A DNA stretch of 64,000 nt from Batillaria attramentaria (taxonomy: Eukaryota; Mollusca; Gastropoda; Batillariidae), in contig JACVVK020000326.1 of the NCBI GenBank assembly GCA_018292915.2, positions 672,501 to 736,500 on the forward strand. Reading direction: 5' to 3'. The translations under genes were made by a program, and so were the position numbers. Below the pieces are notes generated by a model, which was given only the letters and a program-made list of their open reading frames with translations, did no database searches and had not been told where the DNA came from. Shown in pieces: positions 636-62,596 of this stretch. Numbering within the stretch: the stretch's first letter is position 1; the number at the start of each line of letters is the position of its first letter.

Positions 636-3600
636 CTTTCAGGGAACGGTTCAAAGGGTTTAAATGTTAAATGATAACAAATAATGATACATGGTAATTG
701 TAGGGCGCATTTCTTTAGAATAAAACTCAGTAATGACAGCTACTTGTTCGAACAGATGAATAATAATAATAATAATAAATAACAATAATAAATGGTATTT
801 GTAGGGCGCATTTCTTTGGCAAAAACTCAATGCGCCAATCACTCACCGACACTCACACATATTTTACAAACGGTGGACACGCATGCACTGGTGAAAATGA
901 CTAGCTCCTGACACAGGAAATTACTGGAAGGCTTTACAAAAGAGGAACGTTTTAAAATTGCCCTTAAAAATAGACAGTGTGGGTGCATTTCTCAGATTCG
1001 CTGGCAGAGAATTCCAAAAGGTTGGTGCCACAAAACTGAAAGAGCGCTCGTGAAAGGATTTCAGGCTGCGCTTGGGAATTTTGAGAAGCATCTCGGACGA
1101 CGAACAGAGGATTCGCAACGGTTGATAGGTGACGAGTGAAGCCGAAAGGTATGGTGGAAGGGTGCCATCAAAATGACGATAAGCAAGAACAGAAATTTAT
1201 TCTGAAGGCGGAAATGGACTGGATGCGGTCTAGTTACAGCCCTTGAACCACCAACGCGGGGAACCTGGATAATCCAGCGGTAGCCTGTTGGACTTTCCAG
1301 CTTAGGTCGTGGGTTCGAACCCCGGCTGAGGCCAAATATTTGTGCTGGCCTTTTCCTCATTTCCCCCGTCTTTGATATCACTCATATGTGGCGGAAAAGG
1401 ACGTTAAACCCCTAACACACCCACCCCGCCCTTAAATACTGATATATGTGTGTAAGTCAATACTGAGATGCCAAAAACTAAAATGAATGGCTTTGCAGCT
1501 CTGTCAAACATACTAAAAGGGATTTTAAAAACATTATTTTCCCTAGATAAAGGGTGATATTCATGATATTTCTCAACGAAAGAAATGAGCAGTTTTCGTG
1601 TGTAAACATGTATGCAGCGGCTTTTTCTAAATCATGTTTTTTTGGTATACACAAACACGTTCTATACAAAGGACATAGGCCATGAATGTACTAAAAACGA
1701 TGAATATACACGAACAAACATGGCATTCAAATAGAGCCATGTCACAGACATAGACAACAGGGCTGGTCCAAACGCTGTACGCCATGCAACACAAAGCATC
1801 AAGTCATCAGTCAAGCGGCTTTTTTTTTTTTTTTTTAATTATTAGATCGTTCAATTTTGAGAAGTCGCTGTACCCATTATGCAAATCCTTTCTTTTAGGG
1901 TGGAGTCTGAAACAGATTCTATTTACTTCACACAAATCACTACAGTACTGACCTCATCAGAAGGTACATCCTGTGCTTCTATCGAGTTCACAGCCCTGGG
2001 AGGCAAGGCTGCTGCTGCCGCTACTCCTAGAGGCGGCATCTTCCTCTTCATCTCGTCCAGGTCAGGCCTCTTCATCATCAAGGCCCGGGGCAGAATCTCC
2101 GTAAAGATTTTCTTCACCCACGGGGACATTCTGTCCGTGGACGGGTTCTTGAAGTTGATGTGCAACGTGTACACAGTTAGTATAATAGAAGCAGTCACCA
2201 CTATCATAATGAACAGCAGGTACTTCCCGATGAGCGGGATGACCAGGGACGTGGGAGGGTTCATGTCGGACAACAGGAGGAAGAACACGGTGAGAGCCAG
2301 CAGGATGGAGATGGCCAACGTGACCTTTTTTCGCCGCTGTCGGAGGGCAGGTAGAAGACGAGGACGGTAAGGCAAGAGATGGAGATGCAAGGCATGATCA
2401 GGTTCAGCGTGTTAGAAGAGCGTGCGGCGACGTAAGGTCACGTTGAAGGTGATGTCCGGGTAAGGCTGGGGGCAACATGGGTAGAACTTCACCTGCCAAA
2501 GAGTCACGATGAAAGGCTTGTTTGATATACAAACACTAAAGCAAATCGAATTAACAACAGGATATAAGACATTTATTACTTAATCCCGTGCAGTGTTCCC
2601 ATTAATTACGTATTTGTACGCCAAAAAAAAACCTCTTAAATTGACACACACATTTTAAGGCAGCGCGTCACAGGGGACGCACGTTTTTGGTATCGCCGTG
2701 AGAAACAGTATTTTTTCGACTCTCTCCCGGACACCCGACGACCAAACGCGATCTGTAACTAGCATCGGACACTTGCAGCATCGCATTTCCGCTGAGCCAT
2801 TGTGCGTAACAGACAGAATCTGATGTATGGACACTCCAATTTACAAAAGGGCCCAGAAATATATGAAGAGCGGGTCCCAAGGACCCTTGTATTTTCGATT
2901 CACAGGGAACACTCTGACACGATTATACACAGCAGATAGGAGTACTATAGTCCTATAGTAAAGATTCACCAAAGCAGTCATTCAGGTCTTTGAATAAATC
3001 TCATGAAGTGTTTAACTTCAAATATCTAATATACTATTGAGAATTTTTAGGAGTTCACCTTATGCCAAAATCATGTAATTATTAATGAAAAACTAACAAG
3101 TAAACTATGCCTTAATTATGACTACACATAAACTCCACAAACGATGTGGGTCCTCCAGGACCCATACTTTTCAAAGAGCGATTTCAGTGTAGATGCTTTG
3201 GTTCAGTTCTTATCACTGCTTTGAAACTAATTCTTTACCTTCGTCTGGCTGTGACATGATGACGTCCCACTCCACGTTGTAGTAGTAGTCCTTTAGGTCT
3301 ATCCCTCGTGGAATAACCAGGGTGGTACTCTCATCAACGGCACCGTCACCCATAGGAACTCCCTCACACACGTGCTGCAGGTCCACCTCGGTACCGTCAT
3401 ACGACCACGTGCTAAACTTCAGAAAGCACTCCTGGATGTCAAAGGGGAAGTACTCCACATTGATGGGGCAATAACTCTTGAAGATGGCCGGCGGTTCCCA
3501 GACGATCTTGCCATCGTGGTAAACTGACGCTTTGGTTTTCAACGTGACGACAAAATCGCCGTCGGCACTGGGAACATAATATAAAACACTGATAAACAGT

Positions 3601-3856: not shown

Positions 3857-5062
3857 CTTATTTGTTCGTTTTTGTTTGTTCAAGATCTCTTGAAGTGAAA
3901 ACTGGTTGCTCGGGACAACTCAAGCTCAACTAAGTTTGATGCAAATACAAACAAAGAAAGAATCTTTTTAGCGATACCGATCATCTTTATTCGTGAACGT
4001 TGCGTCGAGAAAAGAGGGCTGGGTGGGTGGGTGTTTAGGATTATAACGTCCTTTGCCACCATGTAAGGTTAATATCAAAGACGAGGCAACGAGAAAAAGG
4101 CCACATGCAAACCCGACTCACTTGTTATAGAGAACCAGATCTGGTTTCCACAGGTCATCAGAAGGGATGTTGATTTTAGCCAAACCATCGTAGTCATTCG
4201 GGTCCCACTGCAGTCTGGAGTCAAACCATTCCTGTATACAGAGAATGCACTTGGCTTATCTAACTAGTGTGTGGAGCTGCAACAACTAGACATATGGACA
4301 CATGACTGAAAAGTGCAGAAAATAAGCTTTCTTTTGAGATTTTTTTTTATCTGTAGCATGGTGTAGACCTGAGATATGTTTCTTGAAAGCTTGCTCATGT
4401 TAAGAAAGTAGCTGGTAACGTGAGACGATGGAATCCGGCTGCCAAAATGGCGTGGTTGTATATGATCGTTTTCAACATGTTTATCAGCGACGTTCAGGAA
4501 TCTGTAAACCTTTACAGAAGTTGCACTCGTTGCTTAAAGGCCCCAAAATGAAACTATCTCAAAGTTGCAAAATTTGACACCATCAACATTTTGTTACTTG
4601 TTGTTGTTGCTGTTGTCGTTGTGATGTTTTCTCAAAAGTGGCTGAGCGACTTTGTTCCTCTACTGTGGGAGCCCATTATTATTATATATCATCATCATCA
4701 TCATCAGTAGTAGTAGCAGTAGTAGTATCACTTATTATTACTTTGTAATACTATCATCATCAGTAGTAGTAGTAGTAGTAGTAGTAGCAGCAGTAGTAGT
4801 ACCATTATTATTGCTTTGTAATACTATTATCATCAGTAGTAGTAGTAGTAGTAGTAGTAGCAGTAGCAGTAGTAGTAGTAGTAGTAGTAGTGTTCTATTG
4901 TGTTATTGTGTTATTGTGCTTACCTGTCCGTAACCACACGCTGATAGTGAGAATCTGGTTCTTTTCGTCCTGAAATGGAAAGGAAATCAAACAAAGTTGA
5001 TGACAGTATTATGGTCAGTAATCTATGTGTGTGGAATGTGTGTACGGGTAGGAACTTAAACA

Positions 5063-5098
<36 letters not shown>

Positions 5099-5103
5099 GC
5101 ACG

Positions 5104-5156
<53 letters not shown>

Positions 5157-5184
5157 CACAACACAACACAACACAACACAACAC

Positions 5185-5215
<31 letters not shown>

Positions 5216-5281
5216 CACAACACAACACAACACAACACACACAACACAACACAACACACACAACACAACACAACACAACAC

Positions 5282-5332
<51 letters not shown>

Positions 5333-7240
5333 GATCGGCGAATATATTCCTGTCCAGATCTTTTAGATTCCAATGATTGACTGTTCCGTATTTCATGCAC
5401 GTTTTGGCTTCAAGTGGCGGATTACAAAAAGCAGATTATTTATATCGACCCAGCTTTGCTTGGATGACCGCTGATTGCGCTGCCCAAACCGCCGTATTGC
5501 AAAACTTGAGTTCAGTCTAAACAGCTAGAGTCAGTATAACCTGCTTTCAGTTCAAATATTTCTGATGAAAACATCTTAACTGTAGCAGATAAAAATTCAG
5601 GTTGCTTTCTGGCGGAGGAGGGTGGGAGGAGGCAGGGGGAAGAGTTGTGGGGGCGTCTCAAGTGCTATGACCACAGAAGTGAGGAAGTAGAGACTTGTGT
5701 CTTCTATTTTTACGCCATTATTTCATTTCTCCTGCATGCGTACTAAATACATGTACTTGTTTTCATTCCATAGCCCGGCCATCTCGCATGGAATGGGATG
5801 TTAAACGTGCACATTTGCCATTCATGCGAAGACCTGGCCCCGTAAACGTGTCTGCATGCAAATTGTGACGCGAATTTCGTGAGGGAAAATCCTCAACCAA
5901 ACCTCAGGCCGTCAGCTTGACAACACAACGTCTGCACGACTGACCTTCTTCGCGAAGTATTGTAGCTGACAATGTTATTCTCTTCCCACCGTTAATCCCG
6001 CTGTTTTTGTCAGCGGCAAGGGGGAGATGATGGGCTCCTTGCCATCGAGATTATCTCACCCTGACAGACAAACGACGTCTGCTACCCGAAAGTTTGCAAG
6101 CTTCCCCGGGCCGAGGCACGCCTGTATTTTACAAAACCTGCAAGAGCCATGTGGCGACCCCTCCCCTGTTTCGTCAGCTAAACTGTGTAAGAACTCCAAG
6201 GAGAGTTTCCCCTACCTGTCCCTAGTCATGATTTAAAATGGCGTAAGTACAAACTCTCACAGCACGCGGCTTCTACATGTCTTCCCATGCGCACAACACC
6301 CACTAATTGCTCCACGTGAACACTGAGTGGAATTAGCGGCTATTTCGGACAGGTAACAAGTTCCGGCGTTTTGAGCGACAGGGCGGCGAGGAAGAGAGTA
6401 CATTGAAGGCGCTTCTCTCTTCGCTACCTGTAGCCTGGCTTATCAGATCGGGATCAGACTGGAGCGCAAGCCGCGGGGAGGGAAGTGGCAGGGGTGAGAA
6501 CTCAAGGAAAGGGAGTCAACTCTTTCCGACAAACCTCAGCGTTAGCATGTCAAGTTTGATGCATGTATACATGTACGTATACATTATTGGAATGGTATTT
6601 TGTTGTTGATGAGAACACAGGAAACCCTGGAAGAATACCGATGAAGCTATGGTTGATACATGTATATTATTCCAATATTATTCATTGTTTATGAGAACAC
6701 ATGAAAACATGCCGTTGAAGCTATGGTTGATACACGTATGTATGCAAATTATTGCAATACTATTTATTGTTGATGCCTGAGAACACATGAAAACGCGGAA
6801 GGAAAATGCCGATGAAGCTATGGTTGATACACGTATGTTTGTAAATTATTGTAATACTATTTATTGTTGATGACTGAGAACATATGAAAACGCGGAAGGA
6901 AAATGCCGATTAAACTATGGTTGATACATGTATGTATGTAAATTATTGCAATACTATTTATTGTTTATGAGAACACGGGAAACGATGGAATATGGACTAG
7001 CGTGCTCTCTCTATGTCGGTGAACCATTTCAGTAGACAATACAAGGGGTGGGTGGGTGTTTGGGGGTTTAACGTCCTTTTCCACCACATACTAGACAATA
7101 CAAGGCGGGCAACAACAAAAGTACTTATAACTAGCAATCCTGCAAATTGAGCCAATTTATGGGTCTATTTGAAGACCTACCTCTTTAGGCAAGCTTTCGA
7201 GCTGTAGACCGACCACTGTTTCATCGGCACTCAGAGAGAG

Positions 7241-7290
<50 letters not shown>

Positions 7291-7820
7291 CGCGAAAAGA
7301 GTGTTTCGTAGAAAACAGATAGGCGCTATATAAACTGTATTCATTATTTTTTTTCCATTACAGATCAACGAACTGGAAGCGAGGGTTAAAGTTCGGACAG
7401 TTTCCGGGTATTAAGGGGTGTTTGGGTGTTTGGGGGTTTAACGTCCTTTTCCCACCACATAGGGTGATATCAAAGACGGGGCAACGATGAAAAAGCCAGC
7501 ACAAATATTTGGCCCCAGCGGGGATCGAACTCACGACCCGAGCATTAGAAGTCCAACACTCTACCATTCGACCACCCCGGCTCCCCTTTCCGGGTATTAA
7601 GGATGCGTATTTCTGAATAATGCGTCACAAAATTTAATGATTTTTTTTTTTTCGTGAAAATCTGTATGTTTATTCAGCCATAAAACCTGTAGTTATGGTT
7701 CTAATGCTCGCGTCGTGAGTTCGTATCCCGGTTGGGGCCAAATATTTGTGCTGACTTTTTCGTCGTTGCCGGCTCCGTCTTTGATATCACCCGTATGTGG
7801 TGGTGGAAAAGGACGTTAAC

Positions 7821-7853
<33 letters not shown>

Positions 7854-8015
7854 ACACCCACCCTGTAGTTATTGTCTAGTCAAGTCAAGTCAAAATACGT
7901 TATTAATTTTATCCCCGCAGGGCAATTCATGCGGGCGAGCATAAGACACATAAAAAAGTTATATAAAATACAAATAGCAGAATATAATAGTAAAATATAA
8001 ATATACTAAATTCAT

Positions 8016-8081
<66 letters not shown>

Positions 8082-8090
8082 TCTCTCTCA

Positions 8091-8134
<44 letters not shown>

Positions 8135-11100
8135 ACACCCCTCCCCCTCCCCCATCCCCATCCCTTCCTCCACCCCCCATTCCCCCTGCTATCTACCTGT
8201 TCCCCGTTACCTGTGTCTACCTGTACACAGCACCTGTCGCGTCACGTTCAGGCACCTAGGTGTGTTGGCCAAAATAATTGATTAATGAGCTGCCTCTGGC
8301 CTTCGCGTCTGGCCAGTGTTTTGCTGCCAGACACGCGCGCCTTTGCCTTTCACACACTGGTTTCCAACATTCCAAACTAGACCAAATTTTACACAGGTGA
8401 AGAACTTCACCTCGGGTTTCTTCCAAGCACTTGTTCGGGCCGGGCCACAGTCTTGCATGCTGCGTGGATTCATATCATATTTGCGTCGAACTTCGGTCAC
8501 AGACCACTTCATTTCCAAAACTTTCGATTAATTTAAACCAAGGTGCACATGTGTTCTATATTTATTTTTCTAGCGCCATTTCCTTCGTACTCAGGACAAA
8601 TTAAATATACTAATCTAATCTAATGCTACCATTTTTTTTTCCCTCACAGATAGTTCTGGGCTGTTTTCATGGAATCTCTCATCACACTAGTTAGACACCG
8701 CAGTGGACAATGATACAGCCCGTCTGCTATGCTGGTCAGTACTGAGCCAACAGAAGCGTACTCGCTGACGCGGCGACCACACCGTCTGAGCACTCGAGTA
8801 GTGTAACAACAGTCGTAGAATTTGAATGTTGGAACGCTCGCGCAAATTGTAAACAACATTGTGTCGCTTTAAGAGCTGTACTACTCGTTCATTTTCTTAC
8901 GCCGCCCCCTCCGCCTGGGGGGAGCCGGGGTGGTCGAATGGAAGAGCGTTGGACCTGTAATGCTCGGGTCGTGAGTTCGTATCCCGGCTGGGGCCAAATA
9001 TTTGTGCTGGCTTTTTCATCGTTGCCCCGTCTTTGATATCACCCTATGTGGTGGATAAGGACGTTAAACCCCCAAACCCCCCACCCCTCCGTCTGGAACG
9101 CTTTACCTGTCACCATTAGGGATCTTCCCACGCTGACTCAATTCAAAGCCCATTTAGAGACCTACCTCTTTAGGCAAGCTTTCGAGCTGTAGTCCGGTCA
9201 CTGTTCAGTGTGTGTGTGTGTGTGTGCGCGCGCGCGCGCGTGCGTGTGAGCGTCAAGAGTGTTTCGTAGAAAACAGATAGGCGCGATATAAACTGTATTC
9301 ATTATTATTATTATTATTTTAGTCATCAAGATAGAGTATTTCGAGCGTACAGGCGCACTCACGAGCGAAACTGTTCTAAAACATAAGTTGGCTTAGCAAA
9401 GATGCAGTTAGCCTGTTTAATGTCCTGTACTGTTTTCCGTCAGTCAGGACGTACAATTATTTCCTGTAATATTCCGCACGAATATGAGGCCCTGCTGTTG
9501 TTGTTTCGTTGTTGTCGTTGTTGTTGTTCTTGATGTTGTTGCATTGTTCTTTATGGTATGTGGTTTTATAGTTAGAGTGTTAGCACTGTTGGTGATGTCG
9601 TTGTTGCATTGTTCTTTAATATGCTGTGTGGTTTTATAGTTGGAGTGTTAGCACTGTTGGTGATGTCGTTGTGTTTGTGGATAGTGGCTGTGGTCTTAGG
9701 TCAATTGTGCAAACGGGCGTAGTCATTTTCAATCGTTGTTATTGTTGTCGTCGTCTTTGTTGATGATCTTGGTGTTGCTTGTGTTCTTCCTTATATCGTT
9801 GTTATCCAAAAGTTGTTTTTGTTTTTGATGTTTATGTTTGTTTTCATTTTGTTGTTGTTGTTGTTGTTTATAAATTAAGTGTAGCTGTAATTTCTTTCTT
9901 TGGTAGAACAGGGACTAGATTTTTTTAAATTATCTCGACGATAAATAGCACGATATTTAAACAGACAAATACGTCTAGGGCGCTACATAAAAGTCAAACA
10001 TTGCCCGAGAAACACCAAGCCCCAAGAACTTGAAAGGTTTAACACGAACCAGTCCCTTGAAGTCGAGCCGCTGTACGCTTCTTTCGACATTTTGCTTGAC
10101 AGAATTAGCACATCTCACGAAATGCCAAAAGCCACTGGGGCCGTTCAGAACAACCTTCTTAAGTACAGGTAAAACTCTACAATAATGGGGGAAAAAACTA
10201 TAAAAAATGAGAAAGACGATGCAGCTTCAGAAGAGATTTTTTCTCATCGGAAAGTTTATGCCCCGAGGTATGTTCTAGTTTATTCCACTCTTTGAAAACT
10301 TTGAAAGTGATAAAAAGAGTAGGATGTAAAAGAGGAAAGCGTGAGGGGCAATTTTAGTTTTTAAACACCGCCCAACATGAAAAGATTACCGTCAGATGTC
10401 ATCGTTAGGAGGAGAACTTGAAGTAAGCTGACATTTCCTGCATGCGTTAAGGAAAAGCCCCCCCCCCTCCACCCCCCCCCCCCCCCCCCCCCAAAAAAAA
10501 GTTTTAAGAAGGCTGAAAGCTGTCAAAAATATCTTGCACTTGATTGGATAGGGAATATAATATCGGTTCCGTGTTGTTATTATCGTCGTTCTGTTCTGTT
10601 CTGTTCTGGGGTTGTTGTTTTTTTCTGTTTCAATTGTTCTGTTCTGTTCTGTTCTATTCTATTTTGTTCTGTTCTGTTTTATTCTGTTCTGTTTCAATTG
10701 TTCTGTTCAGTTCTGTTCTGTTTTGTCTTATTTTGATCTGTTCTGATCTGTTCTGTTTTATTCTGTTCTGTTCTGTTTCAATTGCTCTGTTCTGTTCTAT
10801 TTTGTTCTGTTCTGTTTTATTCTGTTCTGTAATGTTCTGTTCTGTTCTGTTGTTTTGTTTTGTCACTGTTGTTGCCGGTTGGGTTTGGTTTTGCCTGTTT
10901 GTTCGTGTGTTTTCCGTCTGTCAAGTGAGGGGGAGCCGAATGGTACAGCGTTGGACTTTCAAGGCTCCGGACGCGAGTTCGAATCCCGACTGGGGCCATC
11001 TATTTTGTGCTGGCCTTTCTCTCGTTGGCCCGTCCTTGATATCACCCATACGCGATGGAAAAGGACGTCGAACCGGCTCCAAAACACCCACCCACCCACC

Positions 11101-12814
11101 CTGTCAAGCGAGGCTGTTTTAAGACAGTCTGAAGCTGACTTCACTCAATCAGGACAATCTATCCATAAAACCTTCACGCGTTTCCTGCCCAGGAAATATC
11201 GTAACCTCTGAATATGAACAAGTCTCACAAACAACAGCACCTGCCACCTCAGTCATAGCAAAAGAGAAAAACGGCGAGGTCAGGGTAACACATGGATGGT
11301 TTGATGAGGAGAGGCAAGCACTGGCTCCTTACAGGCCATAATACTGGTATACCCCGCCAGTCTGCATTCCTCACAGACAGTTTACAACACTTCCTGGCGT
11401 GAATCCTTGGCGTTTTTACAAACCGCCATACGCGTTTATCGTCAGATTCATCTGCCACGACTCCATGACAACCTCTTAAAGACGATCAGCCAAATCTAAC
11501 ACCTTAATGCTGAACCAACGACTTTAAACATGGTATGTTAGCAACTGATAGGGTCTGAAGAGAATTATGAAGGATTCGTTTACCTCTGGTTTTGATTAGC
11601 TCCAGTCCTGTACGGCTCAGGTCAGATTATCTGCCACAACTACTGCATGAGCCGAAACCTCTACAAGACAAAAAGCTAAATCTAACGTCTTAATGTTGAA
11701 CCAACGACTTTAAACATGGTATGTTAGCGATAGGGTCTGAGGAGAATTATGAATGCAGGGGCGCCGGAACCGGGGGAGGGGGGGGGGCAGGGGGAGGGAG
11801 CTGCCCCCCTGTACCCAAGTAGAGGGGGGGGGGCAAGAGTATCTTTTTGCCCCCCCCCCCCCTGGAAAATCAGGTGACTATGGCAAGAGGGGGGGCAAAG
11901 CCATGGTCTTGCCCCCCCTCCCTTCTCCCCCCCCTCCCCCTACCCCTCTTCCTGCTCTCTCCCTCATGCCACCCAACAGAGAACTCAGTTTAGCCGTTGC
12001 ATGAAATATCAAAATGACGGCAGAAAGTCGTCTGAAACCCCCCCCCCCCCCCCCCCCCCTTTTCACTTTCTCCGCGCAACGTCCTTCCTTTCACTGGCTC
12101 ACTGGTTCGGAAAGGTTTTTGTCTGTGCAGCATCTGAACGCCGCCGCCCCCCCCCCCCCCCCCCCCCCGCTTTTCACTTTCTCCGGACAACGTCCTTCCT
12201 TTCAGTGGCTCTGGCGGTTCCCCCCTCTGAGATTCTGCCCCCCCCTCCCCCCCCCCCAACATCTTCCGGCGCTCCTGGAATGATTACCTCTGGTTTTGAT
12301 TAGCTCCTGTACTCAGGCTGCAAGATCTCAGTATCGTCACAGAGAGGTTCGGTGACAGTTTCACTGTATGCAGGTGAACCACTGATTAACCAATCAGCTG
12401 TTGACATTTCTCTGAATTTACAATACATATATAATTATGCCCTGGCGTCAAGCTTGCCCTACATCAGATACACAATTATGTACAATGCGAGTTTCAGAGG
12501 TTGCCGGTACGGCTGCACAACACAGACAGCACGTGGTATTTCCGCCTCCATCACTTACTTCATCAAAGACGGATTTTTTTTTTTTTTTTTCATGACCCGG
12601 CCTCTGCTTTGTTCAGACACGTACGGTCAACATCAAACGATATTTTCTGGTTTACCATAGGAACATGTGCAGCATTCAGGTGCGTCATATTTCCGGAACG
12701 GAGGACATAAAACTACTATAAAGACAATTTCTAGCTCTGTCAGACACATACTGCGCAAGATTTGTTTGATGTTCAATAATTATAAACAATATGCAAATGG
12801 CGTGAGCGCGCGCG

Positions 12815-12880
<66 letters not shown>

Positions 12881-13572
12881 TCTTTTACTGTCTTTCCTTC
12901 AGCTAACAGTGATTACCAAAGGCAAAGAACACGAAGAGAGAGAGAGAAAGACAGAGAAAGAGGGGTGGGGTGAGGAGGGGGGTGAGGGGAGGGGGGTAGG
13001 GACACACAGTGTTATCAACACACAGAGAGAGGGGGGGGGGTTGGAGGGGGTGGGGGTGGGTAGGGACACACAGTGTTATCAACAGAGAGAGAGAGAGAGC
13101 ACCAACAATACCAGTGTGTAATTAAAAAGAATTGTAAGCAACACGCATGGTCACGGTCACGGTAATGTCCCACCTGACTGACTTCCTGGAGTGTCTGCCG
13201 GCCGTGCACAGTACTATACTAGGCCTTAAGAACTAGGAGATTATCTGTAAACACTACACAACACTGGCCAGGACAGCTGTTACTACAGACCGCTGGAGTT
13301 AGAGTCTACATTCAAAGTAAGCCTATTGATCGCTGCGTCCGTCTTAACGTCTTATAATGCACACAATCCGGTTTACCTTAAGCTTAGCCACACACCTCTG
13401 TCAGGCTGTTGTGGTGAAGACTTGTGTGTTTGCTCGAAATTTACGGAGAAAAAAAATAGAGATAGACAAACAAACAGACAGGCAGAATGAGGGCCGGACA
13501 GAGACAGATTTTGAGTGAGCTCACTTATCACAAAGGTGGCTCTTCAAAACAAAATTAAACACACACACACAC

Positions 13573-13629
<57 letters not shown>

Positions 13630-15548
13630 TACAGGAACAGCGGATGATACACAAACGCTACAAAACACAACTGCCGCAGGTACCCGAGTAAATAGATAAA
13701 TAAATAAAAGTCCTAACAATTACCACTTTAGGATATTATCGATGCTGCACCTACTTCTTCCACTTCCACCACTACGACCGACAGCAACGACAACTGCTGC
13801 AACATTGTTCTAATGCTCTTTCGCCCTGTATTACTATTTCTGTAGTGTGTTGCCACCATATCACTACCCACAGCAATTGTTTTAACACTGGAACACGCAT
13901 TCCTATCGTTCACACCACCTCACTTCTGCCATCGTGGAAGCCAGAGCAAAAACAAAATTCCAATATCGTGATGGTCAGACATGTGGGACGTTGATTTGTG
14001 ATGGGTTTCCACAAAATGGGGACAAAGGGTGATTTGGGGCATGTGAAGTTATTGGAATTAACTGAAAAGTGCAGAAAACTGGCTTCACTTTGGTATGAAA
14101 ATTACTTCCGTAGCTTGATGTAGGCCTGAGGTATGTTTGCTGGAAACTTGTTGTTGAAAAGCGGCCATGTTGAGAATTGACTGGTAAAATGTGAGGATGG
14201 TGTGGGGTTTTTTTGTTTTGTTTTTTGTTTTGTTTTTTGTTTTTTTTTTGTTTGTTTTTTTTTTGGGGGGGAGGTTGATATGGGTGATACCAAAGACGGG
14301 GCAACGACAAAAAAGCCAGCGGCACAAAAATTTGGCCCCAGCCGGGATACGAACTCACGACCCGACCATTAGAAGTTCAACGCTCTACCATTCGACCACC
14401 CCGGCTTCCCGAGTAAAAAAAAAAAAAAAAGTGACATGGGAATCATGCCGGTACAGCATATTTGTTTTATAATTATGCTCGTTTTTTACATGTTTATAAG
14501 CTACAAGGAGCCTTGAAACTTTCTAAGAAGTTGTATTAGTTGTCTAGGGATCCGAAAATGAAAACAATCTCGAAGTCGCTAAAAATGCCCCCCAGTTTTT
14601 GTTGTTGTTGTTGTTGTTTATTTCGGTTTTCTCAACAATGGCTGATCGACTTTTTCTGAGATCCCATTTTATTCACCTGACTTTTTTTTTTTTTTTTCTT
14701 TTTGCGGCAGTGCGGCAGCAACCGTATATTTGCTCAGCATTCGCAAACACAAACCGTGCAAACCAGGACACAGGTGATAAACGGCTATACGGTGACACTG
14801 AGAAACACGCTGCGGGACCCTAATATTAGCGAGGACAAATATTAGCCGAAAGCCGAGACAAACTGAGAGCGTCAGACAAAGTAGAAAATTGTCCTCTTCG
14901 ATCAGTCTTAACAAATTTGGAATTCAAGTTAGATGAACTCGGCATTAGTGAAAGAAGCCTTCGAGTAAGAAGAACAATTGGGGGAAAAACTTAAATGAGC
15001 GTGAGACGTGTACATTTTTATGTTACTGCCTCGTGTTTTATTGGTCCTATTTTGAAATACCTGGGTTGGGATGGGTTGGGTTGGGTTGGGTTGGGTTGGG
15101 TTCGGCTGGGTTCGTTTGGGTTGGGTTGGGTTTTTAGTTTGGTTTGTGTTTTGTTGTTGTTGTTTTGTTTCGGTTTGGTTTCAGTGTTTCTTTGCATTGG
15201 TTGGGTTGGGTTGGGTTGGGTTGGGTTGGTTGCCGGGTTGTTTGGTTGGTTGGATGGGTATTGTTGCGGCGGTGGTGGTGGAGTTTATTTGTTGTTGGTG
15301 GTTCTGGTAGTGCGGGATGGTTAGCTGGCTGGTTGGTTGGTACTTTGGTTTAAATTGCTTTGTGGGGTCAGACCGTCATCGCTATAGTGACCATTCAGCT
15401 CTTTTGCTTGACAAGTGTCAGTACAATGCAAGGTACATGTACGTTGTCACAAACCCACAAAGCTAAGCTCAGAATCATACTCCTTTGTTGTGAACGTCAC
15501 AACTGACAGCAGGCTGGATCCTTCACGAAAGAGAGAGAGAGAGAGAGA

Positions 15549-15606
<58 letters not shown>

Positions 15607-16490
15607 GACAGACAGACAGACAGAGATCGTAATACGATATCCAAGGCATCACAATTGAGTGACAGTTTATTGAAGTCCCCGTGAATAGCTTGCACCAATC
15701 TCGCCTTTTTTCTACCACCGTGTACCGGAATAATATACAGCAGTTCGTACGCAGCAGCTGCTACCACAGGCCACGGGCAGCACACATCACACCGACTGAC
15801 TCCAACACAAAGGACGGCTTAATTATTCCCCCATCTTTTACTCTGCCCCCCTCTGTCGTTTTCTCTTTCGTCAGTCTCTGCCTTCCTTTCCTATCTCTCT
15901 GCAAGACGTCCATTTTCTATCGAGCAGAGCAATTTCCTTATAAAGCGGTGTTATCTGAACTTGAACGACGAAAGATCTTCAAGCTCGACCAAAAAAAAAC
16001 CCAAAATTTTTCTGGTATTATTTTTATGTTTATACGCCCCCAGAACCCATGCTCATTTTTTAAAAAGAAAATTGGAAGAAAAAGCGAACGCACGTTCTTC
16101 TCAGTTACACGCGGGCATAGAATTGTATATGCGTCTAGAGTCATGTTCAGGACTGACAGGTCACAGAATTTTCAGTGGCCACATCAATACTTGTTCAGTA
16201 CCTCACCTGACCCCTTTTACACTCGTTCAAGTGGATGCTAAGATATCATCCATCAAGCATCTATTGTTGTCAGTAATGATTATATGAAACGACGGTCAGG
16301 TTGCACGGGATCCAAAGTTGTTTCCCCTCATAACTTGACTTGATACTGTACTTGTTATTGTAACATAACCATACCCATCACGTAACTATGTATCTGTGTG
16401 TACATATCTGGTTTCTTTGTGATTTCGAGGACGCAGACTTAAACCAAGGGTTTCAACATCCAGATGCAGTGTCACCTCATTCGAAAACAA

Positions 16491-16574
<84 letters not shown>

Positions 16575-17570
16575 GAAGTAAGTAAAGCTGAGAGCGCTCC
16601 CTAGATCTAGGAGGTGTGTGCTTTGTATGCCATTGGACAAGTCCGCCTTGCCCTATATTGGCTACAAGCCACAATGGGAGGTGGGGGGGGGGGGACCTAC
16701 CATCCTACCGCTGAAACGTCTAACAGATCTAAGGGTATCTCACCATTCATAGTGCCCCCATTCCCCTCCCACCGGGAGGAAAATGGTCGGTACGACCAAG
16801 GCCATGTGAATTGGTGATTTTAGCCGCTCACGACCATGGTTTCGGGTCAATGGGACCCTCATCAGGTGAGCATGCGGCGATACCCTCGAGGGCTGCAGCG
16901 TCCAACCAGCACTAAAAGGCTGCCCCAGAATAATCTGGTGCGTCTCCAGTACTAGCAGACGTCGCTACCCTAAAGCTCTGCAAGAGGTTTCAGCGGAAAA
17001 AGACTAAATAATTTAGAAGGAGCAACTGCCTATGTGTAATGTCATGTAATTACATTTAATATAGAAAAGGAACAAAGGCGTTACTAAAGCCGAAAACAAG
17101 CGCTCAATCAGGTCAATTTGAAAGTAGGGGAAGTAAGTAAAGCTGAGAGCGCTCCCTAGATCTAGGAGGTGTGTGCTTTGTATGCCATTGGACAAGTCCG
17201 CCTTGCCCTATATTGGCTACAAGCCACAATGGGAGGTGGGGGGGGGGGACCTACCATCCTACCGCTGAAACGTCTAACAGATCTAAGGGTATCTCACCAT
17301 TCATAGTGCCCCCATTCCCCTCCCACCGGGAGGAAAATGGTCGGTACGACCAAGGCCATATGAATTGGTGATTTTAGCCGCTCACGACCATGGTTTCGGG
17401 TCAATGGGACCCTCATCAGGTGAGCATGCGGCGATACCCTCGAGGGCTGCAGCGTCCAACCAGCACTAAAAGGCTGCCCCAGAATAATCTGGTGCGTCTC
17501 CAGTACTAGCAGACGTCGCTACCCTAAAGTTCTGCAAGAGGTTTCAGCGGTAAATATTAAATATCAATAT

Positions 17571-17645
<75 letters not shown>

Positions 17646-18123
17646 CCACCACCACCACCACTTCCAGCACCACGACCATCACCATCACGCATCAAGTGCC
17701 TTCAGCTTGAATTGCAGCTAGCGTACTCACCACATCAAGAACCTGCGACAGCCTGAGCCCCATCTTGACAGTCAACAGGTTGTTGGCGCCGGCCGAGGGT
17801 TTGACGAGGGCTTGGTAGCGAGACATGAGGTCATAGTGCAGCCTCTTGGCTGACGGGTCAGGCTGGGATCTTCTCGCGTCCCCCACGGGCACAGCGCTCA
17901 GGATGAGAAACACCAAGGACAACACGACGACAGAAGTTCTGGAGAACTGCACAGCGGAGATTCCGACGCCCCGGAGGCACTGTTGTTGTAAGATCTGACG
18001 CGACCAAGGGCGTTGGTGTTCTGGTCTGCAGAACCAGCCACTCTTGTTACCGGTGCAATAGAGCATCATCGAGTCCCTAGATCTGTCCGCTTTTCTGGAG
18101 AAATCGATGGAAGAACCCTTCAT
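450..18123 (-). CDS. Nicotinic acetylcholine receptor alpha-type subunit, 3'-incomplete (gene span)
   Basis: Cys-loop ligand-gated cation channel subunit of the plasma membrane. Visible coding exons in gene order are 17731-18123, 4924-4969, 4122-4231, 3239-3567, 1953-2492 and 450-635. The exon carrying M4 and the stop codon is off the left edge. Diagnostic motifs are WKPDLVLYN (loop A), a Cys-loop with exactly 13 residues between cysteines ([15 protein letters not shown]), TWSYDG (loop B), the vicinal pair FYPCC (loop C, alpha-type), GEK at the cytoplasmic end of M2 (cation selective), M1-M3, and the loop segment [14 protein letters not shown] just before M4. The 110-bp and about 45-bp exons match exon sizes conserved across animal nAChR genes. 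Four small frame conflicts (about 4927, 2492, 2416 and 2331) mean the assembled sequence does not translate continuously. They are either assembly indels or signs of a decaying copy. Family assignment is very secure; functional status is not. Confidence 0.93.
770..1118 (-). pseudogene. 3' end of a non-LTR retrotransposon (reverse transcriptase C-terminus)
   Basis: The minus-strand frame gives [20 protein letters not shown], then [15 protein letters not shown] and a stop. This is the C-terminal RT signature shared with the copies at 8891, 19925 and 53942. The 3' UTR ends GCGCCCTACAAATACC followed by (TTA)n. A second copy of the same tail lies at about 663-712, suggesting a slipped or double insertion. 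Confidence 0.8.
1248..1427 (+). mobile_element. tRNA-Arg-headed SINE, diverged copy
   Basis: Diverged tRNA head with box B GGGTTCGAACCCC, then the family body (AAATATTTGTGCTGGCC, GTCTTTGATATCACTC, GGAAAAGGACGTTAAACCC). Possible target duplication gcccttgaa (1239-1247) / gcccttaaa (1428-1436). Confidence 0.8.
1953..2492 (-). CDS. nAChR exon 5: loop C, M1-M3 and start of the cytoplasmic loop
   Basis: Acceptor ttggcag|GTGAAG and donor GATGAG|gtcagt. The first part gives [19 protein letters not shown] (vicinal cysteines, pre-M1), then a TAA at about 2415 that disappears if one A is surplus. M1 follows in the restored phase ([20 protein letters not shown]). A run of six A at 2326-2331 where the GEKV codons need four shifts the frame again. 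M2 ([20 protein letters not shown]) and M3 ([20 protein letters not shown]) are open. The exon length of 540 is inconsistent with its flanking phases by the same net amount as the inferred surplus bases. Confidence 0.88.
3239..3567 (-). CDS. nAChR exon 4: loops E, Cys-loop, B and F
   Basis: Acceptor ttcccag|TGCCGACGG and donor GACGAAG|gtaaag, 329 bp, open throughout. It encodes [15 protein letters not shown], the Cys-loop [15 protein letters not shown], then [16 protein letters not shown] and [14 protein letters not shown]. Between loop B and the loop C strand lies [20 protein letters not shown], about a dozen residues longer than in typical alpha7-type subunits and with an extra cysteine. 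The exon ends in phase 1, while the next exon as assembled needs phase 0. Confidence 0.93.
3667..3855 (+). repeat. (GTT)n/(GGT)n and (TG)n microsatellites
   Basis: (GGT)n at 3681-3712 and about 84 bp of (TG)n at 3772-3855, in an nAChR intron. Confidence 0.95.
4018..4105 (-). mobile_element. 5'-truncated SINE fragment
   Basis: The reverse complement carries only the 3' body of the family (tail ACCCACCCACCC, ACGTTATAATCC, TTTGATATTAACC). It lies directly next to the 110-bp nAChR exon, inside the intron between 3567 and 4122. Confidence 0.65.
4122..4231 (-). CDS. nAChR exon 3 (110 bp, loop D and loop A)
   Basis: Acceptor tatacag|GAATGG and donor AACAA|gtgagt. Exactly 110 bp, the size of the conserved fourth exon of vertebrate nAChR genes. 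It encodes [17 protein letters not shown] followed by [17 protein letters not shown], holding the loop D tryptophan region and the loop A WxPD..LYN motif. Ends in phase 2 and joins cleanly to the next exon. Confidence 0.93.
4677..4908 (+). repeat. Trinucleotide array (ATC)n/(AGT)n
   Basis: Alternating ATC, AGT and ATT triplets ending only 15 bp from the donor of the 46-bp nAChR exon. Confidence 0.92.
4924..4969 (-). CDS. nAChR exon 2 ([14 protein letters not shown])
   Basis: Acceptor tttcag|GACGAA and donor ACAG|gtaag bound a 46-nt exon encoding [14 protein letters not shown]. The homologous exon in this family is normally 45 nt. Here the end reads CGG-ACAG where CGG-CAG would join in frame to GAA TGG (EWFDSRLQW) in the next exon. 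As assembled, splicing to the next exon gives a stop codon after three residues. One surplus base is the simplest explanation. Confidence 0.85.
5062..5329 (+). repeat. Interrupted (CA)n/(ACACA)n array, 268 bp
   Basis: Alternating (CA)n blocks and CAACA pentamers with a (GCAC)n island, the longest CA-type tract in the window. Confidence 0.95.
6557..6985 (+). repeat. Minisatellite of 74-97-bp units
   Basis: Four to five units marked by GATGAAGCTATGGTTGATAC at 6640, 6714, 6811 and 6908. The inner two units are 97 bp and the first 74 bp, differing by an internal deletion. Confidence 0.85.
7047..7091 (-). mobile_element. Extremely 5'-truncated SINE (45 bp) with target-site duplication
   Basis: Only the last 45 bp of the SINE tail, flanked on both sides by TAGACAATACAAGG (7033-7046 and 7092-7105). 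The 14-bp duplication proves insertion by target-primed reverse transcription rather than decay of a longer copy. Confidence 0.88.
7143..7345 (+). pseudogene. 3' tip of a non-LTR retrotransposon
   Basis: It encodes [14 protein letters not shown] and a stop. The 3' UTR has an (AG)n(TG)n(CG)n tract at 7230-7293 and the terminal box AGGCGCTATATAAACTG. Same family as the copy at 9097. Confidence 0.8.
7417..7586 (-). mobile_element. Full-length tRNA-Arg-headed SINE with target-site duplication
   Basis: 170 bp bounded by a perfect 16-bp duplication, TTTCCGGGTATTAAGG (7401-7416 and 7587-7602). The head has box A GGTCGAATGGTAGAG, anticodon-loop region GGACTTCTAATGC (TCT, Arg-like) and box B GAGTTCGATCCC. 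This copy defines the element ends. Confidence 0.93.
7703..7865 (+). mobile_element. SINE copy, 5'-truncated, with expanded poly-C
   Basis: It starts within the anticodon stem (TCTAATGCTCGCGTCG), keeps box B GAGTTCGTATCCC and the body, and has a run of about 30 C in the tail where other copies have short C tracts. Confidence 0.85.
8016..8131 (+). repeat. (CT)n(CA)n microsatellite
   Basis: (CT)n then (CA)n. It follows a CAAGTCAAGTCAA...TTATTAATTTTATCCCC segment (7878-7930) that resembles one at 21565-21620 and looks like a dispersed-repeat end. Confidence 0.93.
8891..9316 (+). pseudogene. Non-LTR retrotransposon 3' fragment split by a SINE
   Basis: RT codons 8897-8918 continue at 9097-9191 after the nested [33 protein letters not shown], stop. 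The 3' UTR contains (TG)n(CG)n at 9209-9247 and ends GCGCGATATAAACTG with (ATT)n. The fragment itself interrupts the dispersed repeat whose halves lie at 8622-8890 and 9320-9405. Confidence 0.88.
8919..9083 (+). mobile_element. SINE nested inside a reverse-transcriptase fragment
   Basis: Full-length copy flanked by CCCCTCCGCCTGG (8906-8918) and CCCCTCCGTCTGG (9084-9096), a 13-bp target duplication with one later change. The duplication falls within the RT codons for APS(A/V)W. Removing the insert rejoins SYAAPSxW to [13 protein letters not shown] in frame. Confidence 0.93.
9535..9670 (+). repeat. Tandem duplication of about 68 bp
   Basis: TTGCATTGTTCTTTA...GAGTGTTAGCACTGTTGGTG appears twice in a row with few differences. 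Confidence 0.8.
10440..10860 (+). repeat. Poly-C tract and (TTCTG)n array
   Basis: C-rich run 10459-10491, then about 280 bp of imperfect TTCTG pentamers (10580-10860). Confidence 0.93.
10931..11100 (+). mobile_element. SINE copy with target-site duplication
   Basis: Flanked by CTGTCAAGTGAGG (10918-10930) and CTGTCAAGCGAGG (11101-11113). The tRNA head has box B GAGTTCGAATCCC, followed by the family body and an ACCC-repeat tail. Confidence 0.9.
11484..12310. repeat. Local duplication split by the hAT-like element
   Basis: A segment at 11484-11607 is repeated at 11653-11752 plus 12283-12306. Both share GAACCAACGACTTTAAACAT and TACCTCTGGTTTTGATTAGC. In the first copy these blocks are contiguous; in the second the 522-bp element separates them. 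Confidence 0.75.
11756..12277. mobile_element. hAT-like non-autonomous element, 522 bp
   Basis: Terminal inverted repeats CAGGGGCGCCGGAA and TTCCGGCGCTCCTG (one mismatch in 14), the CAG...CTG ends typical of hAT elements. It is flanked by GAATG on both sides (11751-11755 and 12278-12282), although hAT normally makes 8-bp duplications. The interior is almost entirely G- and C-runs and has no transposase. Confidence 0.75.
12806..12879 (+). repeat. (GC)n(AC)n microsatellite
   Basis: Alternating purine-pyrimidine tract of 74 bp, a potential Z-DNA former. Purine-rich GA/GGGG repeats follow at 12930-13100. Confidence 0.93.
13559..13626 (+). repeat. (CA)n microsatellite
   Basis: 68 bp of CA repeat with one GC interruption. 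Confidence 0.95.
14262..14411 (-). mobile_element. SINE copy next to long homopolymer tracts
   Basis: The minus-strand head with box B GAGTTCGTATCCC and most of the body are present. The 3' tail on the plus strand merges into the T/G tract at 14209-14270, and an A run follows at 14415. Confidence 0.85.
15064..15240 (+). repeat. (GGGTT)n arrays
   Basis: Two G-rich arrays (15064-15135 and 15198-15240) of GGGTT pentamers separated by T-rich sequence. Runs of G3 every 5 bp could form G-quadruplexes. Confidence 0.92.
15529..15625 (+). repeat. (GA)n(CA)n(CAGA)n microsatellite
   Basis: Compound simple repeat of about 97 bp. Confidence 0.95.
16490..16569 (+). repeat. (CA)n(TA)n microsatellite flanking the hammerhead element (left)
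   Basis: Ends exactly where hammerhead repeat copy 1 begins. Confidence 0.95.
16570..16996 (-). mobile_element. Hammerhead-bearing direct repeat, copy 1 (retrozyme / Penelope-like terminal repeat)
   Basis: First of two direct repeats of about 427 bp. It begins TAGGGGAAGTAAG and ends GTTTCAGCGG on the plus strand. It differs from copy 2 (17125-17550) at only two substitutions and the length of one G run (12 versus 11). It has no ORF of note. Its left flank is a (CA)n(TA)n microsatellite. The minus strand holds a complete hammerhead ribozyme. Confidence 0.85.
16823..16878 (-). ncRNA. Type I hammerhead ribozyme, copy 1
   Basis: Read 5' to 3' on the minus strand: stem I strand GCCG-CAUG-CUCAC, core CUGAUGA, stem II GGGUC / loop CCAUU / GACCC, core GAAA, stem III ACC-AU-GGU, cleavage base C17, stem I return GUGAG-CGGC. 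All invariant core bases (C3 U4 G5 A6 G8 A9, G12 A13 A14, A15.1-U16.1, H17) are present. Stems I (5 + 4 bp with a 4-nt bulge) and II (5 bp) pair perfectly. Cleavage is predicted between the complements of 16832 and 16831. Stem III is only 3 bp with a 2-nt loop, but ACCAUGGU is self-complementary, which favours a dimeric hammerhead. Confidence 0.9.
16997..17124. other. Spacer between the hammerhead repeats
   Basis: 128 bp of AT-rich unique sequence with no ORF, no repeat match elsewhere in the window and no tRNA-complementary primer site that I can see. It is the only sequence inside the element that is not duplicated. Confidence 0.7.
17125..17550 (-). mobile_element. Hammerhead-bearing direct repeat, copy 2
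   Basis: Second copy of the 427-bp repeat, separated from copy 1 by a 128-bp unique spacer (16997-17124). It is flanked on the right by (TA)n(CA)n, a mirror of the left flank. The near identity of the copies implies recent origin or gene conversion. Unlike canonical LTRs, the ends are not TG...CA, and no primer-binding site or polypurine tract was recognised in the spacer. Confidence 0.85.
17377..17432 (-). ncRNA. Type I hammerhead ribozyme, copy 2
   Basis: Identical to the copy at 16823-16878, offset by 554 bp. The predicted cleavage site is between the complements of 17386 and 17385. Cleavage at both sites of one minus-strand transcript would release a 554-nt RNA made of the spacer plus one repeat equivalent. 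Confidence 0.9.
17570..17660 (+). repeat. (TA)n(CA)n(ACC)n microsatellite flanking the hammerhead element (right)
   Basis: Begins about 20 bp after hammerhead repeat copy 2 and about 70 bp before the donor of nAChR exon 1. The order of the tracts mirrors the left flank. Confidence 0.95.
17731..18123 (-). CDS. nAChR exon 1: signal peptide and N-terminal helix
   Basis: Minus-strand reading frame ending at a strong donor, GATGTG|gtgagt, in phase 0. It carries a hydrophobic signal sequence ([15 protein letters not shown]) and then the classic N-terminal receptor segment: [33 protein letters not shown]. The last residues join directly to DEKNQILT in the next exon. The start is placed at 18121-18123, where A at -3 gives a good Kozak context. 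An in-frame ATG at 18196-18198 and two at 18064-18069 are alternatives. Any of them leaves an unusually long hydrophilic stretch before the signal sequence, so an unrecognised 5' intron is possible. Confidence 0.85.
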
Positions 18124-38611: not shown

Positions 38612-41600
38612 CTGCACACATTTGATCAAACAAATCAGATAAACATTCTCTCACATAAGTGGTGTGGCTTGTTCAGTTTTTGTCCACACTGTGGTAACTA
38701 TGTGTGTCTTGTATTTTGCACACAAATGAAGCTCTCAGAAGTTCTATCCTAATTCAACTCTGGCTGATTTGTTATATTTCATTGGACAAGCCCTACTAAA
38801 CACACTGCCAGCAGCATTATCTCAGATGATACACTATGATTTTAAACTTGAATGGCTGTCAGATAGCTGTAAACCACTGAGGCTTACTTTTCTTTAGTTA
38901 CTATATCTGTCCTAGCCAGGACACATTTCAGCCGCACTGCACACAACTGTTCTGCACAGTTTTTTCAATGTACACTCCAATGCAATTCGTAAACACGTTT
39001 CCTAATAAAGTTAACGAAATGCTGCAACACACCTGGTCCTGCAGTGCTTCAGGGAGGGTGACTTTCTCCAGTCCCCCATACACGATGCTGGGCACCAGCT
39101 CTGTTGTCACCCTGAGAGCGTCCTGCAGGTAGAGAACTGCATCCTCGTAGTTGGCCTGGCTGTACAAGTAGTTGGCGTACTTCACACAGACACATTGCTT
39201 GATCTCCAGCTTCAGCGACTCCTTAGAACAGTGACATGACCGTCAGCCGTTATGAAATTAATAAGACATCTGAGTTCATGTTCATTATGGTTTATTTCAG
39301 CAAGTTTAAAGTTATGAATCAAAAACCCACCTTCATCTCATTTTCGGTTATTGGGTATGGTTTTGCACTCACTTGTATCGAGGTTAATCATATCCTTCAT
39401 CAAATTGTTTAGTATACTGTATATCTACTTTTAAATATCCTGTAAATGTTGAAGTGCACCAGTGGCCTGCATCCACGTTTCAAGTGTTTGAACTTTAAAA
39501 TGAAACCCTGTTGTTTGCATTTCAAACTTCACACTGCCTTAATTTAACTTTCAATTTCAATATGAAGTGCCAGGGCCAGACTGCCGGAAGTTAGAAACCC
39601 CTGAAAATATTTGAGGATGGTCAGCAGCATCAAACACTCTCGATCTGGACAGACCTGGAAGTACTGTTCTGCAGCTAGAATCATCTCCAGCTCCTGGTCG
39701 ATCTCCTCACACACGCAGGCCTTGACGTAACACATGGTGGCCAGGTTGCCCAGTGTTTCACACATCTCCGGGCTCAGCTGACCATTGTGCATTTCTCGAA
39801 AAACGTCAAGACTCTCTCGATACGATTCGATCGCCTTGTCAATGTCGCCGGCCATGATGTGCATCTGACCCAACTGTTGCAAAGTAGTCACCAGATCACC
39901 TGAAAGAAATGTGGCGCATGGCAGGTTTAGTGAATACTGCAAGTGAACAGCTTGTGCAAAATGCTGCGGGTTCCTTGAGGGTTCACAAATATGGCTTTAC
40001 CTGAAATGTAACAACCATTTCAAAACGAATTGATTTAAGTGACTTCATGTATTATTTTCATGTTTTCTGACACTGTCGCTTCCCAAATTACATATATATA
40101 TATATATGTGCAAAATATTGCAATTTCTGCAAAAGATGAAAACAGATTTTTTTTTTCACCCTACAAGAGACACTGCATAGGTAGTGTAAAGAATCTCACC
40201 TTTAATATCTTCCTCCAGTACATCCTGAATGTCACGAGCTTGCTCCAGGTAATGGACAGCACTTTGGTATTGCTTCATGCTGATGTGGGCATCTGCCGAG
40301 CGACTCAGCAACTGATTGTGGAGCGCCATGTCCAGATCTTCACACGACGACACCATCGCCCGGACTCCCGCGCTCCCGCTGCGCGACATCTCCGACTCGG
40401 ACTGAGAAGAGCTGAGCTTGTCGCCGATATCCAGAGCTTCGTTGTAGTAGATAAGGGCGGTCTTGTAGTCGTACTGAGCAAAGTAGCAATCGCCAAGGAT
40501 CTGCAGAATCCTCATGTGCTGACGTCGCTCACCAGCCGTGCTCTCCTGCATGAGGAGCCGGCCATAGTTGAGGAACTTGATGGCCTTGTGCTGCAGGTTG
40601 AGAATGTTGTAGGTGTTGCCCAGCATATACAGGTTCTGACACACCAGCCAGAACTTCTGCTGAGGGAGGTCCACGATCTTCTCCCCATACAGCGCCCAAG
40701 AACGTCTCAAAAGCCTGGCTACAGAAGGAGACGCATTGTGGTAGGACTTCATCTTGTAGAAAGTGATGCCCATGAGGGAGATGAGGAGACCGTGAAGGAA
40801 CGTGTGGAAAGTGAGACCGTGGGCATGCTTCACCATGTGCAAGGCTAGTTCAAAGACATGGGCTGCCCTTGGGTACACATGCAGCATAAATGTGGACACA
40901 CCCAGCATGATCAGTACATGTGCATTCTCCAGGATGGCTTCTTTCCCATAGACACCTGCCAGCCTGAACAGGCCCAAGGCCTTCTCGTAGAACACCAGAG
41001 CTTCAGTGTAGTTCTTCTGCACAAAGTGGCAGTCACCAAGCTTTCTCAGAGCCTTGGCGACAATGTCCTTCTGTGTCTCCTCATTGTTCTCCAGCACACA
41101 AGAGCTTCAGTGTAGCAGCTGATGGCAGCGTCAATGTTACCCATGCTGGACCTGTCCTTGGGAGATAACAGCTCCTTCACTGGGGCGCGATCTGGCCTGG
41201 CGACATCTTGTTCATCTGCGGCCTCCTTCTCAAAGAACTCACAGATGGCTGCTATAACCTCCGCGTACAGAGTATCTTCACTCAAGTCGTCTGTCACGTA
41301 CGCATTGCCAAGGTCGATGAGTACCATAGCGACTTCTCTGTGTGCATCGTGGTCCTGCAGGTCTCGGAAGAGACGCAAGGCCTTGTCGAGGTTAGCACGA
41401 CCTTTGTTGACTAGGCCCTGGCGCAGGCAGAGTAGGCCAGTGTTCTGCATCACCTGGGCACTGAAGCGCAGCATGTCCTCCGACCCGTCCTGGATTTCAT
41501 CCACGATCTCAAGGATGTTCTCACATAGGAGCTCCGCCTGGGTGTAAGCCTCAGCTTCCATGAGATGCCCCACAAGCTTGTGGTGGATCTTTGCCATCAT

Positions 41601-52386: not shown

Positions 52387-52571
52387 GCTAGAGACCATCC
52401 ACATCTTCATCGCTAGAGACCATCCACATCTTCATCGCTAGAGACCATCCACATCTTCATCGCTAGAGACCATCCACATCTTCAGCGCTAGAGACCATCC
52501 ACATCTTCATCGCTAGAGACCATCCACATCTTCATCGCTAGAGACCATCCACATCTTCATCGCTAGAGACC
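52387..52571 (+). repeat. 25-bp minisatellite, seven units
   Basis: Units start GCTAGAGACCATCCACATC at 52387, 52412, 52437, 52462, 52487, 52512 and 52537, and break up at 52562. They are almost identical, with one C-for-T change (TTCAGC for TTCATC). Confidence 0.92.

Positions 52572-53364: not shown

Positions 53365-62596
<9,232 letters not shown>

Follow-up and report, generated by a model that had tools for sequence, protein, structure and literature searches.

A candidate non-LTR retrozyme with tandem type I hammerhead ribozymes in an inferred nAChR intron of the gastropod Batillaria attramentaria

Genomic context

We analysed a 64-kb stretch of DNA (the window) from Batillaria attramentaria, a cerithioid gastropod. 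On its minus strand lies an nAChR gene whose first exon, near 17.73 kb, was recognised by motif reading and whose second exon, with the motif DEKNQIL, lies at 4969. A domain search placed the ligand-binding and membrane domains in exons further downstream. Because the first exon has no match of its own in Pfam or the PDB, its assignment depends on the motifs. Exon frames were read from translations and splice sites were placed by eye; a regular-expression sweep for exons returned eight rows, two of which were used. The intron 1 inferred from these frames and splice sites spans 4970–17730 (minus strand, about 12.8 kb). It holds, in sense orientation, the small repeat element that is our subject, which begins about 180 bp after a GTGAGT donor placed by eye. 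Given this position and strand, the nAChR pre-mRNA would carry both ribozymes of the element, as the original prediction had proposed.

The rest of the window contains further genes and repeats. A long, nearly intron-free TPR gene (40156–42710, minus strand) is read in two overlapping frames, the upstream of which (41046–42710) matches a 920-aa Batillaria attramentaria protein in nr with 100% identity over 83% of the query; an intron or a frame error may lie behind the overlap of the frames. An aquaporin (MIP) exon lies at 57527–58213 (minus strand). Two minisatellites are present, one at 58586–59085 (82-bp unit, 6.1 copies, 99% matches) and one at 52386–52571 (25-bp unit, 7.4 copies, 98% matches), together with a tandem of a 293-bp unit at 30838–31506 (2.3 copies, 77% matches) that is possibly another small repeat element. 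By eye we also recognise two decayed LINE relics: an RT fragment (RVT_1) followed by a C-terminal frame at 53944–55146 (plus strand), and a similar C-terminal frame at 924–1196 (minus strand).

Repeat structure and hammerhead ribozymes

The element occupies 16570–17550 on the minus strand and consists of two direct repeats that flank a unique, AT-rich spacer of 128 bp (16997–17124). Its anatomy, strand and setting are direct observations, as are the intact motifs and the near-identity of its copies. Copy 1 (16570–16996, 427 bp) is the 3' copy in the sense of the transcript and copy 2 (17125–17550, 426 bp) the 5' copy; both have TAGGGGAAG at the start and TTCAGCGG at the end. They differ by two substitutions and by one G in a homopolymer, before which the repeat phase is 555 and after which it is 554. 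The two near-identical direct repeats with a phase of 554, noted when the locus was first read, are seen here with three differences in 427/426 bp. Since the repeats are so nearly identical, the element is probably young.

The repeats and the spacer differ in composition. GC content is about 0.55 in copy 1 and about 0.54 in copy 2, both computed on spans shifted by 2 bp, and 0.328 in the spacer, measured on the likewise shifted span 16999–17126. The lowest-GC window of 128 bp within the repeats has a value of 0.492. Across the whole 64 kb, 7% of the windows of this size are as AT-rich as the spacer. A 289-bp module around the first hammerhead (16708–16996) has at its two ends the arms of an imperfect inverted repeat of 23 nt (83%; 16708–16730 and 16974–16996), and its end coincides exactly with the end of the direct repeat, beside the drop in GC.

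Both flanks are microsatellites. On the left (16492–16569), (CA)n is followed by (TA)n, which we take as the insertion target, and the AT-rich right flank (17551–17644) runs from (TA)n to (CA)n. We found no target-site duplication, although short ones could not be recognised within a (TA)n target; judged by eye, a 2-bp TA duplication is possible if the end of the element is shifted. A search of the rest of the window for further copies of the element gave low-complexity matches only.

Each repeat contains a type I hammerhead ribozyme on the minus strand. Hammerhead 1 (16823–16879) was recognised by a structural descriptor and by an Rfam match, with a predicted cut after C17 at 16832. Hammerhead 2 (17377–17433), recognised by the descriptor, has the span of the first plus 554 and a predicted cut after C17 at 17386. 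The 65-nt stretches that contain them are identical in both copies. The core is intact (CUGAUGA...GAAA...UC); stem II comprises 5 bp with the loop CCAUU, stem I is made up of 5 bp and 4 bp separated by a 4-nt CAUG bulge, and the palindrome ACCAUGGU forms stem III. Between GAAA and UC, helix III consists of CCAUGG, that is, six non-core nucleotides, and it can also be drawn as two pairs (A15.1-U16.1 and C15.2-G16.2) with a tetraloop. Minus-strand hammerheads with an intact core, well-formed stems I and II and a self-complementary stem III had been predicted, and all of these are present in both copies as described. Judged from the sequence, the tandem type I hammerheads are genuine and the observation is confirmed.

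Chance occurrence and Rfam scores

A loose descriptor (core CTGANGA, stem II of at least 4 bp, stem III of at least two pairs beyond A15.1-U16.1, stem I of at least 4 bp) finds two places in the 64 kb, both of them in the element. Applied to 150 dinucleotide shuffles of the window, this descriptor returned 3 rows; a version that allowed helix III a slightly wider range returned 6 places in 2600 shuffles. When the core was set to CTGATGA, there was one occurrence in 2476 and one in 2600 window shuffles. A strict descriptor with the dimensions found in the element (CTGATGA, stem II of at least 5 bp, stem I of at least 5 bp) had none in either set (0/2476 and 0/2600). As a bare-core control, we collected exact matches to CTGATGA-N8..24-CGAAACCATGGTC in prokaryote genomes: stem II was 0 bp and stem I at most 3 bp in all 20 of 20 matches. 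Pattern scans of viral contigs, in two forms, gave no match.

A covariance-model check had been proposed with the original prediction, and its outcome is divided. Scanned as a whole at the gathering threshold, the window has no Rfam match, and a scan of a 1.3-kb stretch returned no hammerhead even at E<=10. On 81 nt around copy 1, RF00163 (Hammerhead_1) does match, with 24.7 bits and an E value of 1.6e-4, but this score, from a scan that at such sensitivity covered copy 1 only, falls short of the gathering cut-off of 34 bits.

Coding capacity and retrotransposon signals

In the element, 20 stop-free frames reach 40 codons or more, and the longest has about 74. Three of these 20, including the frame that crosses the spacer, were searched against Pfam at E<=1 and contained no domain; two frames of the element had no homologue among 5.8 billion proteins, a result that says little on non-coding DNA. 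No frame for a reverse transcriptase or a GIY-YIG endonuclease was found in the element. The small, non-coding element first envisaged agrees with this, as we detect no coding capacity.

Signals of other retroelement classes were sought as well. Read in either orientation, the spacer has no primer-site TGG among its first 25 nt, and the element has no TG..CA repeat ends; we rate an LTR retrotransposon low. The longest purine run of the spacer, on the plus strand, is 10 nt long and lies mid-spacer. By simple pattern, the element has neither an A box nor a B box, and a SINE with pol III boxes is put low for that reason.

Predicted folding of the 554-nt RNA

Cutting at both predicted sites would release an RNA that runs from 17385 to 16832 on the minus strand. 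Its predicted length of 554 nt (GC 0.495) is the length that had been forecast for the self-cleaved product. Folded as a circle, this RNA has a predicted minimum free energy of -203.4 kcal/mol (z -5.4), and none of 40 shuffles was as low. In the predicted circle 67% of the bases are paired, compared with the 'above 70%' quoted in PMC4918200.

The same predictions place the ribozyme in an inactive state. For the isolated 57-nt ribozyme at 37°C, an inactive fold is favoured by 6.0 kcal/mol, in which ACCUG, including the core residues C3-U4-G5, pairs with CAUGGU. The predicted 554-nt circle adopts the same inactive ribozyme fold, again favoured by 6.0 kcal/mol. The inactive fold is also favoured at 15, 20 and 25°C, by a predicted 7.3 to 8.6 kcal/mol. 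When 50 nt of flank are included at either end, the active fold carries a penalty of 3.2 kcal/mol, and yet another structure is the best one. For the complete 981-nt transcript, the predicted optimum is 11.1 kcal/mol more stable than a double hammerhead. Whether as monomer, as circle or within the complete transcript, the ribozyme is inactive in the best predicted fold. The folding model has no tertiary contacts, and such contacts could overturn the preference for the inactive fold.

Cleavage had been expected to rely on two ribozymes pairing through a stem III too short to fold alone, and the predictions bear this out in part. Two isolated 57-nt ribozymes at 37°C do fold as a double hammerhead with an 8-bp stem III (-48.2 vs 2 x -21.6 kcal/mol). 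At 15, 20 and 25°C, however, the 8-bp stem III persists in the predicted dimer but the active core does not, and the penalty in the 981-nt transcript counts against pairing there. Moreover, the two-pair helix III with a tetraloop is a form called similar to invertebrate hammerheads (PMC7229834), most of which are described as cleaving well as monomers; amphibian hammerheads are described as needing dimers (PMC7229834, PMC7761336 for both). Dimer-dependent cleavage, perhaps during transcription, is thus possible.

A more elaborate proposal is that, in an unusually long, LTR-like animal retrozyme, the palindrome of helix III switches the ribozyme in one direction only, with an active dimer in the tandem transcript and a locked monomer and circle. 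Pairing of the ribozymes in the nascent tandem transcript would produce the active double hammerhead. Once a monomer or circle has been released, its 3' palindrome half would pair with the catalytic C3-U4-G5 and turn the ribozyme off, so that the locked circle would survive; given the sense position in the nAChR intron, the circle could come from transcription of the host gene. We consider this switch unlikely; the monomer activity of most invertebrate hammerheads and the predictions for some mussel circles lower its probability. Animal circles are described as probably protected by means other than self-pairing, with some mussel circles predicted otherwise (PMC7229834). Were the switch real, the element would exemplify circle protection by self-pairing, and the predicted lock, if it holds, would bear on how animal circles avoid being reopened by their own ribozyme.

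Origin of the element

We interpret the element as a gastropod retrozyme of the non-autonomous, non-LTR kind, with a probability of roughly 0.78. Either a retrozyme or a Penelope-like element had been suggested from the start. The retrozyme half of that suggestion fits better, while the Penelope half is disfavoured by the lack of an RT or endonuclease frame and by a helix III that is not minimal. In the cycle we infer, a minus-strand transcript, either the element's own or read-through of nAChR intron 1, would carry both hammerheads. Cuts after each C17 would release the 554-nt RNA, its ends being a 5'-OH and a cyclic phosphate, and a host tRNA ligase of the RtcB type would close it into a circle. 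The reverse transcriptase of an autonomous element, most likely a Penelope-like one, would then copy the circle for more than one full turn, and about 1.8 units would be inserted at an AT-rich site, in this case a (TA)n tract. The two repeats would accordingly be the overlap of one and three-quarter turns rather than true LTRs.

The length of the element supports this interpretation: by arithmetic it amounts to 1.77 units of the 554-nt monomer, which is obtainable by copying a circular template. Further support comes from the two intact type I hammerheads in direct repeat on one strand, from a predicted circle far more stable than its shuffles, from the three searched frames without a Pfam domain, and from the missing TGG, TG..CA ends and A and B boxes. 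A 554-base circular RNA is probably the product of the element, by analogy with known retrozymes. We infer likewise its copy number, its circularity and its retrotransposition. Penelope-type endonucleases are described as preferring and cutting AT-rich DNA (PMC11167929), a preference that insertion into (TA)n fits, though it does not prove the helper. Where non-LTR elements of gastropods were surveyed, Penelope labels in neritimorphs are described as not confirmable (PMC11203168).

Several observations count against a retrozyme: the monomer length, the 67% pairing, the Rfam score below the cut-off, the fact that no target-site duplication was found, the merely low-complexity matches in the rest of the window, the Penelope labels that the gastropod survey could not confirm, the inactive predicted folds and the GC step. 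The last of these, from 0.55 in the repeats to 0.33 in the spacer, is unaccounted for by one circle copied 1.8 times, because such copying would place the boundary of the repeat at whatever point cDNA synthesis stopped. The step suggests that the spacer might be a separate module.

This last point favours a remnant, or internally deleted form, of a Penelope-like element, in which the repeats would be hammerhead-bearing pseudo-LTRs and the spacer a leftover of the body. An AT-rich spacer differs from the repeats in composition as a separate module would, and type I hammerheads in pseudo-LTRs, partial tandems and AT-rich targets are all known for Penelope-like elements (PMC11167929, PMC7761336). 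The frame that crosses the spacer, however, has no Pfam domain, and the six non-core nucleotides of helix III are unlike the usual minimal Penelope hammerhead (PMC7761336). The RT fragment in the window (53944–54534, RVT_1) is LINE-like by eye, and we see no link between it and the element. We regard such a remnant as unlikely.

Less probable still is that a single SINE-like unit with a hammerhead was simply duplicated in tandem on the spot, which would involve no circular RNA. That the window has only two copies, nearly identical, would suit a duplication, and hammerhead-bearing SINE-like elements occur in schistosomes (PMC8490949). Yet the ends of the pair meet microsatellite on both sides, which is better explained by insertion in one piece, and the pol III boxes of a SINE are missing by simple pattern.

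A DNA-transposon-like (MITE) origin, with the 23-nt inverted repeat as its termini, would draw on the 83% match of the arms and on the TA at both outer ends of the module in copy 2. We think it very improbable: the right end in copy 1 is AA instead of TA, the repeated unit runs 138 bp past the inverted repeat, and the arms are predicted to pair within the self-paired circle. Finally, a domesticated intronic ribozyme regulating the nAChR pre-mRNA would gain from its position in sense, some 180 bp past the first donor (by eye), and from the conserved intronic hammerheads of amniotes (PMC7761336), but near-identical repeats that look young and a seat within a microsatellite leave it hardly any credibility.

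As a non-LTR retrozyme, the element would extend ribozyme-bearing retroelements with circular RNAs to a gastropod, at the level of sequence. In a literature search that covered papers without their supplements, mostly from outside the subscription journals, no gastropod retrozyme was among the matches listed. In a term search, the main text of the Batillaria attramentaria genome paper (PMC10382545) names neither ribozymes nor Penelope. An intact locus in a recognisable gene makes cleavage, circle formation and an effect on the splicing of intron 1 directly testable.

Comparison with known systems

The closest counterparts are the animal non-LTR retrozymes described in coral, mussel and axolotl, which have type I hammerheads, short direct repeats and no LTR signals (Cervera and de la Pena 2020, PMC7229834). 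Their circular RNA has been reported from tissue, with circularisation by RtcB in vitro; the known mollusc host is a mussel, and co-existing Penelope-like elements are the suspected helpers (PMC7229834). The element has in common with them type I hammerheads in direct repeats, a non-coding sequence, no LTR signals found and, by our prediction, a stable circular fold. It differs in the length of its monomer, 554 nt against about 170–400 nt (earlier repeats 150–450 bp; PMC7229834), a described range that we do not treat as defining, and in its LTR-like layout, in which two long repeats (GC 0.55) enclose an AT-rich spacer. The GC content of its monomer is 0.495, compared with below 50% in the text or 45% in the legend of figure 1 of the same paper (PMC7229834). 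The predicted circle blocks the ribozyme, whereas most animal circles are described as leaving it free, some mussel ones excepted (PMC7229834). Target-site duplications of animal retrozymes, when present, are larger than 4 bp; none was found at the element.

Plant LTR retrozymes resemble the element in a different way, with two hammerhead repeats around a short non-coding middle (PMC4918200, PMC7761336). In their circles, the ribozyme sits in a blocked fold with the rest ramified (PMC4918200), like the circle predicted here. They mostly have type III hammerheads, a tRNA-Met primer site, a polypurine tract, 4-bp target-site duplications and circles of 600–800 nt. These plant signals were not found in the element, which has a type I match instead and neither the TGG, the TG..CA ends nor a target-site duplication.

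Penelope-like elements and Terminons share type I hammerheads, partial tandems and AT-rich targets with the element (PMC11167929, PMC7761336). They have a frame for a telomerase-like reverse transcriptase with GIY-YIG, whereas no such frame was found here, and their minimal hammerheads are usually described as having no non-core nucleotides in helix III (PMC7761336), compared with six in the element.

The W elements and SMalpha of Schistosoma have type I hammerhead repeats with a very short stem III and are also dispersed on autosomes; the four hammerhead families of W elements have monomers of about 332–428 bp in long arrays, in contrast to 1.8 units of 554 nt in the element (PMC8490949 for both). 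Hammerhead satellites of newts and salamanders share the short palindromic helix III, and the axolotl hammerhead is reported to cleave better as dimers (PMC7229834). Amphibian satellite monomers are about 330–350 bp, however, whereas the element is a longer unit, in a snail, with only 1.8 copies. In kind, then, the element most likely belongs with the animal retrozymes already known, and what is unusual here is its length and its layout.
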